Of a stretch of DNA of 64,000 bases, positions 386 to 8,900 are shown piece after piece. A model generated the notes under the pieces. It was not told the origin of the DNA and did not search any database. It worked only from the letters and a program-made list of their open reading frames with translations. Each line of letters starts with the position of its first letter. Position 1 is the first letter of the stretch. This DNA is from Cellulomonas fulva (GTDB lineage Bacteria; Actinomycetota; Actinomycetes; Actinomycetales; Cellulomonadaceae): contig NZ_JAHBOH010000001.1 in assembly GCF_018531375.1 (NCBI RefSeq), forward strand, positions 1,054,001-1,118,000, given 5' to 3'. Position numbers and translations under genes: made by a program.

Positions 386-1111
386 CTACACCTGCAGCCC
401 GACGAGCCACGCGGCGCCCAGCGCGAGGCCGGCGAGCGTGACCAGGCCCAGCACCGCCACCCACAACCCGCCGGGCGTGTGCGTGAGGCCGCCGAGCAGC
501 CCCGCGTCGGAGGTGTCGCGGCGCCCGCGTCGGCGGTCGGCTCGTCGTGCCGACTGCATCTCGACCACCGCGCGCGGGGCGCCGAGCAGGAAGAACCAGG
601 TGACCACGTACGCGAACCCGGCCTGCACCGCGGGCGTGCCCCAGACGGTCACCGCGACGAGCGCCGCGAGGCTCACCAGGACGGCCCACAGGCCGTACCA
701 GTTCCGGATGGAGACCAGGACCAGCACGACGAGCACGAGCAGCGACCACAGCAGCGCCAGGTCGTACCCGTGGGCCAGCAGCCAGGCCGCCCCGACGCCG
801 ACCACCGTCGGGGCGGGGTACCCCGCGAACGCCGTCGCGATCATCCCCGGCCCGCGCGGCCGCCCGCGCGACAGCGTCAGCCCCGACGTGTCCGAGTGGA
901 CGCGGATCCCCGACACCGTGCGGCCGACCAGGAGCGCCACGCCCGCGTGCCCGGCCTCGTGCACGATCGTCAGCGCGTGCCGGGCCACGTGCCACAGCCA
1001 CGGGACGACGAGCACGACGAGCACCGCAGCCGCCGCGGCGACCACCACCCACGTCTCCGGGACGGGGTTCGCCGTCGTCACGTCCGCCCAGGTGTCGCTC
1101 AGCCAGTCCAC
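386..1111 (-). CDS. M50-family-like membrane metalloprotease
   Basis: A 241-residue integral membrane protein starting at GTG 1111. After a first membrane segment (residues about 21-40) comes HEAGH at 51-55, the HExxH zinc-binding motif of peptidase M50-like proteins, placed at the start of a second hydrophobic stretch as in the M50B group. Several further segments follow (about 95-115, 120-145, 150-175, 212-238), with a cytosolic Arg-rich loop at 189-200. I infer an intramembrane or membrane-anchored metalloprotease; the substrate is unknown and no PDZ domain is present. The gene lies between the YqgE gene and a divergent oxidoreductase and is probably co-transcribed with yqgE. Confidence 0.8.
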   Translation of the reverse strand: MDWLSDTWADVTTANPVPETWVVVAAAAAVLVVLVVPWLWHVARHALTIVHEAGHAGVALLVGRTVSGIRVHSDTSGLTLSRGRPRGPGMIATAFAGYPAPTVVGVGAAWLLAHGYDLALLWSLLVLVVLVLVSIRNWYGLWAVLVSLAALVAVTVWGTPAVQAGFAYVVTWFFLLGAPRAVVEMQSARRADRRRGRRDTSDAGLLGGLTHTPGGLWVAVLGLVTLAGLALGAAWLVGLQV

Positions 1112-6848: not shown

Positions 6849-7820
6849 GTGAGCACTGCCCCGTACGCGCCCGGTGAGCCCGGCTGGATCCGCCCGCTGC
6901 CGGGCACGGACCTGCGGGTCTCGGCCGTCGCGCTCGGCGGCGGTCCGCTCGGCAGCATGCCGGACCTGTTCGGGCGCGACGTCCCGGCCGACGAGGGCGT
7001 CGCGACGGTGCTGGCCGCGCTCGACTCGCCGATCCGGTTCGTGGACACCTCGAACGGCTACTCGGACGGCGAGAGCGAGCGTCGCATCGGTGCCGCGCTC
7101 CGGCTCGCGGGGGGCAAGCCGGCCGACCTCGTCGTCGCGACCAAGGTCGACCCGCGGGGGAGCGACTACTCGGGTGAGCGCGTGCGCGCGTCGGTCGCGG
7201 AGTCCCGGGAGCGGCTGGGGCTGGACGAGCTGCCGCTGGTCCACCTGCACGACCCGGAGTGGCACGACTTCGACGAGCTGACGGCACCGGGCGGCGCCGT
7301 CGCCACGCTGGTCGAGCTCCGGGAGCAGGGTGCCGTCGGCCGGATCGGCCTCGCGGGCGGCCGCGTCCAGGAGATCGCGCGGTACCTGGACCTCGGCGTG
7401 TTCGACGTGCTGCTGGTGCACAACCGGTGGACGCTGCTGGACCGCTCGGCCGGCCCGCTGATCGAGGAGGCGCGGCGGCGGGGGATGGGCGTGCTCAACG
7501 CCGCGGTCTTCGGCGGCGGGATCCTGGGCGCCCAGCAGGGCGGCCCGACGACGTACGGCTACCGTCCCGCGCCGCGGGAGGTGCTCGAGTCCGTCGCCCG
7601 GATGCGTGAGGCGTGCGCGGCGTACGGGACGGACATCGCGACCGCGGCCCTGCAGTTCTCGCTGCGCGACGAGCGGGTCGCGTCGACCATCGTCGGGATG
7701 AGCCGGCCGGCGCGCGTCGCGTCGACCGTCGAGGCGGCGGCACGGCCCGTCCCCGCCGCGCTCTGGCCCGAGCTCGAGTCGCTGCTGCCCCCGGCGCACG
7801 TGTGGCTCGACGCGGACTGA
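6849..7820 (+). CDS. Aldo/keto reductase
   Basis: A 323-residue cytosolic (alpha/beta)8 barrel oxidoreductase. The catalytic tetrad can be followed: Asp and Tyr in FVDTSNGYSDGESE, Lys in VVATKVD and His in PLVHLHDPE. The sequence is closest in style to the D-threo-aldose 1-dehydrogenase/L-fucose dehydrogenase subgroup (GGGPLG near the N-terminus, GVLNAAVFGGGIL late in the barrel), which oxidises sugars with NAD(P). The GTG start at 6849 follows taggaggtcctc. The stop codon is the beginning of an 18-bp tandem repeat (7816-7887). Confidence 0.88.
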   Translation: MSTAPYAPGEPGWIRPLPGTDLRVSAVALGGGPLGSMPDLFGRDVPADEGVATVLAALDSPIRFVDTSNGYSDGESERRIGAALRLAGGKPADLVVATKVDPRGSDYSGERVRASVAESRERLGLDELPLVHLHDPEWHDFDELTAPGGAVATLVELREQGAVGRIGLAGGRVQEIARYLDLGVFDVLLVHNRWTLLDRSAGPLIEEARRRGMGVLNAAVFGGGILGAQQGGPTTYGYRPAPREVLESVARMREACAAYGTDIATAALQFSLRDERVASTIVGMSRPARVASTVEAAARPVPAALWPELESLLPPAHVWLDAD

Positions 7821-7887
7821 GTGCTCGCCGTGGACCGAGTGCTCGCCGTGGACTGAGTGCTCGGCGTGGACCGAGTGCTCGGCGAGG
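7816..7887. repeat. 18-bp tandem repeat, four units
   Basis: Four head-to-tail 18-base units of actgagtgctcgccgtgg type begin at 7816, 7834, 7852 and 7870; units 1/3 start with actgag and 2/4 with accgag, and a truncated fifth unit (actgag) follows at 7888. The first unit contains the stop codon of the aldo/keto reductase, so the repeat grew from the gene's 3' end. It lies 170 bases upstream of the riboswitch aptamer. No hairpin or protein-binding role is evident. Confidence 0.9.
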
Positions 7888-7970
7888 ACTGAGCGTGGGC
7901 GGGAGCGATGACCGGCGTGGAACCGGTACCGGGTGCGTATCACGGGAGGCTGTCCGCCGCCCGTCCGACG

Positions 7971-7989: not shown

Positions 7990-8060
7990 TTCTGGGTCGT
8001 GGGCGTATTTGGGTGGTTCTGGGCACTTGGCCCAGGTAACAACCTGAACTACTGTCTGGG

Positions 8061-8148
8061 TTGTCAGCGAAACGGCAAACCCTCCGCGAGGAGGGGACGC
8101 AAAGCCACGGGACCCACGACTGGTCAGCCGGGCTACCGAACAGGACAG
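8061..8148 (+). ncRNA. Cyclic-di-GMP-I (GEMM-I) riboswitch aptamer
   Basis: The aptamer signatures are in order and correctly spaced: cggcaaacc (8073-8081), a stem ccctcc/ggaggg closed by a GNRA tetraloop gcga (8080-8095), the invariant gacgcaaagcc (8095-8105) and agccgggctaccga (8126-8139), which matches the 3' core agcggggttaccga of the Vibrio Vc2 aptamer at most positions. A short P1 can form between ttgtc (8061-8065) and gacag (8144-8148). The 3' strand of P1 touches the aggaag ribosome site (8147-8152) of the 48-residue peptide gene that starts at 8157, so translational control by c-di-GMP is the simplest model. Confidence 0.88.
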
Positions 8149-8156
8149 GAAGACCC

Positions 8157-8303
8157 ATGGACCAGACCGGGTTCCCCGCAGAGTCGTCGGCCTCCACCCC
8201 CGCCACCTCCCCCCTGGCCCGTGCTCAGGCGTGGGCGGCCCTCGCGGCCCGGCAGGGTGTGCTGGACCGCATCCCCGCGCAGCGCGAGCGCGCGGCCGCC
8301 TGA
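8157..8303 (+). CDS. Riboswitch-controlled 48-residue peptide
   Basis: ATG 8157 lies four bases after an aggaag ribosome site that abuts the c-di-GMP aptamer. The product is 48 residues: a polar Ser/Thr/Pro start (MDQTGFPAESSASTPATSP) and a C-terminal stretch (about 20-48, LARAQAWAALAARQGVLDRI) that would form an Ala-rich amphipathic helix. There is no signal peptide or membrane segment. A reading that starts further upstream would run through the aptamer and is not credible. A perfect hairpin at 8343-8374 ends the unit, making it monocistronic. I recognise no family; a regulatory or surface-associated role under c-di-GMP is inference from the riboswitch. Confidence 0.7.
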   Translation: MDQTGFPAESSASTPATSPLARAQAWAALAARQGVLDRIPAQRERAAA

Positions 8304-8342
8304 CCGACCGGCCCGCCACGCGGGCCGCTCCACGACATCACC

Positions 8343-8374
8343 GGACGCCGGTGCGCAGCCGCGCACCGGCGTCC
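8343..8374 (+). terminator. Terminator of the riboswitch-peptide unit
   Basis: Perfect 14-bp stem (ggacgccggtgcgc, 8343-8356) with loop agcc and its complement at 8361-8374. It begins 39 bases after the peptide stop codon and is not followed by a T tract. It would isolate the riboswitch unit from the SHOCT gene at 8526. Confidence 0.75.
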
Positions 8375-8525
8375 GTCGTCTGAGCCCCTCGCCGTCGCGC
8401 GGCGACGGTTGCCAGAGGCAGATCGTGCGGGTGTGGTGCATTCCTGCAGGTGCCCAGGTGGACTAGCGTCAGGGGCGATACCCGCACGGCGCGGGCTGCA
8501 CTTGGTCGAAAGGTCACGCACCGAC

Positions 8526-8900
8526 ATGGACTTCTGGCACTGGGTACTCGTTCTGCTCTGGTGGTTCCTCTTCTTCGCCTACCTGATCATCCTCTTCCAG
8601 ATCCTGGGCGACCTGTTCCGTGACCGCGACCTCGGCGGCTGGGGCAAGGCGGCCTGGATCGTCGGCCTGATCCTCCTGCCCTTCCTCACCGCCCTGATCT
8701 ACGTGATCGCGCGCGGCCGGGGCATGGCGGAGCGCCAGGTCGCCGCGGTCCAGCAGGCGAAGGCGGACACGGACACCTACATCCGCGAGGTCGCGGGCAA
8801 GTCGCCTGCGGACCACATCGCCGACGCGAAGGCGCTCCTGGACTCGGGCGCCATCAACCAGGCGGAGTTCGAGCAGCTCAAGGCGAAGGCGCTCGCCTGA
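8526..8900 (+). CDS. SHOCT domain membrane protein with PLDc_N-like head
   Basis: A 124-residue protein. Two N-terminal membrane segments (about 5-32 and 42-66) with aromatic-rich MDFWHWVLVLLWWFLFFAY resemble the PLDc_N two-helix module; a charged linker follows, and the C-terminus (about 98-124, DHIADAKALLDSGAINQAEF) is a SHOCT motif, a short helix pair common at protein ends. Such proteins are frequent in actinobacteria and have no known reaction; an oligomerisation or membrane-stress role is possible. ATG 8526 is preceded by gaaagg. It ends at a strong shared hairpin with the convergent flippase gene. Confidence 0.82.
   Translation: MDFWHWVLVLLWWFLFFAYLIILFQILGDLFRDRDLGGWGKAAWIVGLILLPFLTALIYVIARGRGMAERQVAAVQQAKADTDTYIREVAGKSPADHIADAKALLDSGAINQAEFEQLKAKALA

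Follow-up and report, generated by a model that had tools for sequence, protein, structure and literature searches.

Why should a c-di-GMP-I riboswitch stand in front of a stand-alone gene of only 48 codons? GEMM-I riboswitches usually precede genes for motility, adhesion or c-di-GMP enzymes, and at a locus of Cellulomonas fulva, within the 64,000-nt stretch of DNA analyzed here (hereafter the window, with positions counted from its first letter), the aptamer is followed by a small protein without a described family. The questions are hence whether the RNA is a genuine c-di-GMP aptamer, whether the short reading frame is a gene, and what its product could do.

The preliminary description of the locus had read a c-di-GMP-I aptamer with a GNRA-capped stem from the letters, and both parts stand. 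In a cmscan of the whole 64-kb window, RF03167 (c-di-GMP-I-GGC) was the sole RNA family above its gathering score, with 61.2 bits against 59 (E 5.2e-12) across the aptamer given in Table 1, a 76-nt span that ends 15 nt upstream of the gene; the parent family RF01051 (c-di-GMP-I) scores 67.0 bits at this site (gathering 35), and the loop in question is GCGA, a GNRA loop. RF03167 is the best Rfam label by E-value, but the G at Vc2 position 47, a feature of its consensus, is absent and A8101 is found instead. The Vc2 position map is our own, drawn from the structure line and consensus of the RF03167 model, and that "GGC" denotes positions 20, 47 and 92 is likewise our reading of the consensus and not taken from a paper. 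By this map the pocket nucleotides are G8074 (G20), A8101 (A47) and C8136 (C92), and it is through G20, A47 and C92 that the Vc2 riboswitch contacts c-di-GMP (PMC4744006). A47 occurs in all of the 151 distinct aptamer contexts (loci L001-L178), which form a non-random sample as peptide loci were fetched deliberately, and the C92 equivalent in 149, the site not being located in the other two; G20 is uninformative across these contexts because the search pattern demanded it. Since A47 is universal in the contexts read, as in the Vc2 pocket, we class the RNA as a c-di-GMP-I aptamer of the canonical type with c-di-GMP as its predicted ligand. In an alignment from which contexts more than 92% identical had been thinned (78 kept, 62 peptide and 16 BldC), both partners of 7 of the 17 consensus pairs have changed with the pairing preserved. 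RF03167 was found in 79/81 Cellulomonas genomes and 0/14 control genomes, and the C. fulva genome encodes six GGDEF domains. At two loci not captured by the pattern that demands G20, L123 (about 500-610, plus strand, G071:C207) and L133 (minus strand, G075:C49), the peptide's aptamer has A at Vc2 G20 (GAGCAAACC); in other GEMM-I RNAs, A for G20 moves specificity toward 3',3'-cGAMP.

Table 1. Features of the riboswitch locus and its neighbor in the window, with the basis of each assignment
Feature	Position	Strand	Basis or remark
Promoter-like CTTGGC-18 nt-TACTGT	8026..8055	+	read from sequence; weak
UUGUC, 5' strand of possible extended P1	8061..8065	+	could pair with GACAG 8144-8148
c-di-GMP-I aptamer	8066..8141	+	covariance models, pocket, covariation
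Shine-Dalgarno AGGAAG	8147..8152	+	read from sequence; 4 nt before ATG
48-aa protein gene, ATG 8157, stop 8301-8303	8157..8303	+	ORF and relatives
15-bp perfect hairpin, loop AGCC, probable terminator	8342..8375	+	read from sequence
Neighbor gene, 124-aa membrane protein, PLDc_N and SHOCT domains	8526..8900	+	Pfam; outside the unit

The reported order of a stand-alone 48-residue gene followed by a perfect hairpin was recovered as described. From the promoter-like element, which has a similar CTTGGC...TACC counterpart upstream of the relatives L015 and L026, the transcript would start near the 5' strand of P1; a consensus scan found no sigma-70-type promoter at the locus. The hairpin, with arms at 8342-8356 and 8361-8375, is without a T run, and a scan that requires a T run called no terminator at the locus. 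A homolog of the PLDc_N/SHOCT neighbor occurs at 21 of the 32 distinct peptide loci tested (duplicate loci removed). The aptamer heads what has the look of an mRNA with a single gene, that of a conserved small protein. Further upstream, at 7805-7893, about five copies of the 18-nt repeat GCTCGCCGTGGACTGAGT lie at and after the end of an aldo/keto reductase gene.

Because a terminator would not fit into the 15 nt that separate the aptamer from the ATG, the aptamer likely controls the translation of the peptide gene. GACAG, the possible partner of an extended P1, lies beside and reaches into the Shine-Dalgarno sequence, which an extended P1 might in principle sequester; many relatives have lost this 3' strand, and the alignment fold does not predict the pairing. 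Duplexes between the flanks of the 82 peptide contexts reach -8.92 kcal/mol vs. -8.36 kcal/mol permuted, with 1/200 permutations as good, in a test on related and not independent sequences. The count is 0/200 for all 130 contexts, 52/200 for the 24 BldC contexts and 36/200 for the 24 others, where one BldC row with an empty 3' segment shifts the BldC and overall energies by a constant. As to the sign of the switch, forcing the aptamer lowers Shine-Dalgarno access relative to the free fold in 23 and raises it in 3 of the 94 peptide contexts with 18 nt downstream (31 lower, 13 higher with 60 nt), the corresponding figures for 21 BldC contexts being 9 and 3 (13 and 3), while P1 alone forced gives 34 lower and 16 higher among 98 contexts. 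The differences are small and mixed; the forced-aptamer folding leans slightly and weakly to OFF at high c-di-GMP, a sign that would suit those aptamer targets that are sigma or hydrolase genes. The minimum-energy fold at the window locus pairs P3 of the aptamer with the first codons, as would be expected if the switch were ON; its stability is no better than that of shuffles (z -1.22).

The preliminary description had named in advance an outcome that would speak against it, namely relatives that keep the aptamer and lose the peptide frame. What we found within the genus is the pair, in 77/81 Cellulomonas genomes, with the peptide (profile A1, consisting of 12 peptides, E 0.01) behind the aptamer in each. 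Altogether, 81 of the 86 matches to this profile sit behind an aptamer. For 77 of them this follows from coordinates, with 75 at 6-21 nt and two at 63 nt (measured from aptamer to matched part, against 156 listed aptamers of which six came from an order-wide scan); for the other four the aptamer was seen in the DNA before the peptide (G069, G026, G078 and G013; L131, L150, L161 and L166). The remaining five matches are weak (E 7e-4 to 5e-3), and their host genomes also have the true peptide. The genomes without the peptide are G004, in which the aptamer is absent too, G033 and G064 (the latter 89% complete), each with a single aptamer in front of BldC, and G063 (61% complete). Judged from sequence, the unit is a near genus-wide predicted c-di-GMP riboswitch joined to a small-protein family outside the libraries searched, and because the pairing is kept in nearly all Cellulomonas genomes examined, the small protein is probably a genuine functional component of c-di-GMP signaling.

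How far does the pair reach? It had been proposed for actinobacteria, and this holds for Cellulomonas and some relatives within the family; in the order-wide sample it does not hold for actinobacteria at large. We collected 22 further peptide contexts outside Cellulomonas, in the genera g2, g4, g11 and the more divergent g18 of its family (examples are MGDF...VPPQVLARWAALAG...LPTQ from g2 and MDQYG...RLQAWAGLAASLASRIDYVPAQR from g11), all of which keep [VIL]P.Q and 17 of which keep the W. RF03167 itself was found in 116/221 genomes and 7/25 genera of the family, and in 41/396 genomes and 16/109 genera of the order-wide sample. In the latter, peptide profile A2 at E 1e-3 has a match in 20/396 genomes; its 18 strong matches (E <1e-9) are all from Cellulomonas or g2, and five further matches are weak (E 5e-5 to 9e-4). 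On the order-wide sample, the peptide is a within-family addition to a more widespread aptamer. The g2 genomes (G081-G099) carry two to nine RF03167 copies each, several before different peptide paralogs. Also in g2, aptamer-led ORFs of 26-31 aa lack the peptide core (L083, L084, L089, L071 and L079) and, with small secreted-looking proteins behind some of them, possibly represent a second small-ORF class; together with L086, L094 and L169 these make up the eight short aptamer-led ORFs that visual inspection excluded from the peptide family.

The peptide bears the marks of a coding gene. It consists of an MDQ.G N-terminus, a Pro/Ser/Thr-rich linker, a helix at residues 19-34 and the tail IPAQRERAAA, with a core made up of R...W...A within the predicted helix and then a [VIL]PxQ tail; the relatives read are 38-66 aa long. 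Among 78 Cellulomonas contexts (66 distinct sequences), the helix residues R, W and A and the tail P are invariant, and the tail Q is kept in 76; the pattern [VIL]P.Q is matched in 76/78 and the strict [VIL]P.QR in 64/78. Differences at codon positions 1:2:3 number 1744:1358:3755 in 253 close pairs, and this third-position excess is the pattern of a coding gene. The median dN/dS of 0.76 over 2228 pairs (77% below 1) is not strongly low, so that parts of the peptide evolve fast, the linker among them. The claim that the peptide belongs to no known family is borne out by Pfam, NCBIfam and PHROGs: the window peptide has no match up to E 10 in Pfam or NCBIfam, and 43 members gave single-member matches only (best E 0.097 in Pfam, 0.038 in PHROGs). 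A plasmid search and the weak profile matches inside long ORFs likewise gave no lead on the peptide. The supposed amphipathic C-terminal helix has to be revised, as AlphaFold with 43 relatives places one helix centrally (residues 19-34) and leaves the rest flexible, including a non-helical C-terminal tail (mean pLDDT 73, pTM 0.37); the helix is weakly amphipathic (moment 0.24-0.31, mean hydrophobicity 0.11-0.18).

The peptide had further been regarded as the only target, which does not hold for the aptamer family. The second aptamer of C. fulva precedes a BldC-family gene (NF033787, 100.4 bits vs. a cut-off of 77), and at least 60 of the 79 listed non-peptide aptamers in Cellulomonas are followed by a BldC domain at a distance of 20-120 nt, the other 19 carrying no assignment in this comparison. 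This aptamer-led BldC is a second paralog; 19 classic BldC genes are without an aptamer in the stretches of 501-601 nt that were fetched. Two Cellulomonas genomes have the aptamer directly before a FliA/WhiG-type sigma gene that scores above the family cut-off (L179 and L180). In g2, an EAL phosphodiesterase gene lies directly behind the aptamer (L096 by Pfam, L091 by eye), possibly forming a feedback loop. Secreted targets carry GH26-like or PKD domains in Cellulomonas, DUF4214 in g2 and PKD in g18, and receiver-domain proteins are among the targets in other families of the order. Taken together, the EAL, sigma, BldC and secreted targets are, by their annotation, of the kind expected for c-di-GMP. 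The receiver genes are those of response regulators and follow the aptamer at L225 (Pfam), L226, L228 and L230; at the last three, the reported start codon lies 164-309 nt past the GACGC core, with a 36-aa ORF in between at L226.

Some of these targets share a short motif with the tail of the peptide. In L164 and L165 (G048 and G028), one aptamer precedes the peptide and a FliA-type sigma ORF that begins 5 nt past the peptide stop and matches TIGR02479 at E ~1e-49, below the family cut-off. The sigma factors of L179 and L180 carry GVIPTQR or GVIPAQR at their N-terminus. The motif is present in 33/33 sigma N-termini (the 30 best-scoring loci, L179, L180 and C. fulva's own), 25 with [VIL]P.Q and eight with the P variant only. 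The motif of L179 and L180 is thus like that of an ordinary stand-alone sigma factor and need not derive from the peptide, and we discarded these two loci as evidence for a peptide-sigma fusion. The tails of the 19 classic BldC proteins all fit [VIL]P.[QP] by eye, that of C. fulva fitting this broader pattern only, and the motif is present in 11 and absent in three of the 14 readable FliN linkers (30 loci). A link of the peptide to flagella was likewise rejected, as FliN occurs in 54/81 genomes vs. 77/81 for the peptide.

How much weight can the motif bear? A PDB search with the peptide profile yielded six matches with E values of up to 10, with the tail of BldC (6ama) third at E 2.3, a match that is not significant alone and stands among five unrelated ones, two of which score better; the set searched contained two BldC sequences (6ama and 6amk), and 6AMA is assigned to BldC in PMC5859096. 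As background, [VIL]P.QR occurs once among 38 roughly called window genes with 16,293 residues in total. At the DNA level, a pattern for [VIM]P[AT]QR hits 23 sites in the genome vs. 15 with the reversed pattern; about seven of the 23 lie in real coding frames (frame bias, by eye), and these comprise the peptide, FliN (identified by Pfam FliMN_C) and the sigma factor as well as unrelated proteins such as a LacI-like protein and a methyltransferase-like tail. Composition shuffles of single C. fulva proteins reach the five-residue motif at 0.002-0.02, and none of 20,000 such shuffles reached the two copies in the sigma N-terminus. We regard the [VI]P.[QP]R link among the peptide, BldC tails, sigma N-termini and some FliN linkers as suggestive, not proved.

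From these observations we tentatively favor, as a serious possibility and not as a settled matter, a c-di-GMP-gated small protein whose translation is controlled by the aptamer and which acts through its tail as a cytosolic adaptor or competitor. Binding of c-di-GMP would alter access to the ribosome site. Less certainly, the helix of the peptide would present the C-terminal [VIL]PxQ(R) tail; the same motif is found at the end of BldC and within the N-terminal extension of FliA/WhiG-type sigma factors, and when c-di-GMP permits translation the peptide could compete with or modulate BldC and the sigma factor at a shared partner. One may go further and speculate, although we consider it unlikely in this specific form, that Cellulomonadaceae dose tail mimics of about 50 aa that compete with BldC and FliA/WhiG sigma for one hub protein by the shared [VI]PxQR short linear motif, FliN being a further competitor where flagella exist. 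If true, competition by these peptides would link c-di-GMP to the transcription of development and motility.

Among the other explanations, regulated proteolysis is a doubtful one that nonetheless deserves mention. The peptide would be an adaptor or substrate with an Ala-Ala C-terminus, a ClpXP-type end, and would either deliver partners or be rapidly cleared. A helix with a disordered tail is what the structure prediction gives, and 58 of the 78 Cellulomonas contexts end in AA, but just 3/22 contexts from other genera do so, and BldC shares the tail motif without the AA ending in the 19 classic genes read. We give less credit to the idea that translation of the ORF alone matters, as a leader peptide or mRNA-stability element, and that its product is functionless. 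The ORF is short, lies directly behind a riboswitch and has a fast-evolving linker, and the 5-nt spacing to the sigma ORF in L164 and L165 would suit translational coupling. Residue invariants and third-position bias in the 78 Cellulomonas contexts, the conservation of [VIL]P.Q and, mostly, W in the other genera, and a window hairpin preceded by no other ORF with that aptamer all argue against it.

More improbable again is a secreted or membrane-active peptide that would serve as a signal, an adhesion aid or a toxin-like agent: secreted proteins are among the other riboswitch targets, but inspection by eye reveals no hydrophobic stretch resembling a signal peptide, and the helix combines low hydrophobicity with a weak moment. 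That the aptamer belongs to a variant family with another ligand, as its Rfam E-value and the A at position 20 of L123 and L133 could be taken to indicate, is hardly credible, since the A at pocket position 47 led us to reject this reading of the RF03167 label, C92 is retained, G20 is present in the window and an EAL gene is among the targets.

Returning to the favored reading of a c-di-GMP-gated, tail-acting small protein, its role as a small effector of c-di-GMP signaling, which the preliminary description had suggested, is plausible. The locus adds a small-protein family that is present in almost every Cellulomonas genome examined and has a defined regulator, a c-di-GMP riboswitch; it places BldC genes under such a riboswitch as well, and it offers BldC and the FliA/WhiG sigma factor as candidate partners that can be tested. 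In the full-text literature, with most subscription papers outside the search, c-di-GMP riboswitch and BldC were not found together, nor was Cellulomonas found with a c-di-GMP riboswitch or with c-di-GMP and WhiG, and among the matches listed from the small-protein literature, with the same coverage, a c-di-GMP riboswitch was not mentioned.

Compared with known systems, the window aptamer resembles RF01051 c-di-GMP-I RNAs in sequence, fold and the ligand contacts G20, A47 and C92, but differs from them in its target, an undescribed small-protein family instead of the usual genes, whereas it passes the covariance threshold of RF03167 with an A for the consensus G47. In BldC (NF033787; 6ama), as in the peptide, a C-terminal helix leads into a [VI]PxQ tail, and one BldC paralog is under the same kind of aptamer, but the MerR-like winged-helix DNA-binding domain of BldC is absent from the peptide (0 NCBIfam and 0 Pfam matches). 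In Streptomyces, c-di-GMP acts on BldD (PMC5859096), and in the RsiG-(c-di-GMP)-WhiG switch it is bound by the RsiG protein together with WhiG (PMC8325347). If an RNA input doses a small protein aimed at BldC- or sigma-type regulators in Cellulomonas, this would form a new layer beside BldD and RsiG-WhiG. The likeness is that c-di-GMP acts on a FliA/WhiG-type sigma factor, as the proposed peptide-sigma link would have it; unlike RsiG-WhiG, the link suggested here comes from two genomes with peptide and sigma gene in one operon and from a motif common to both proteins.
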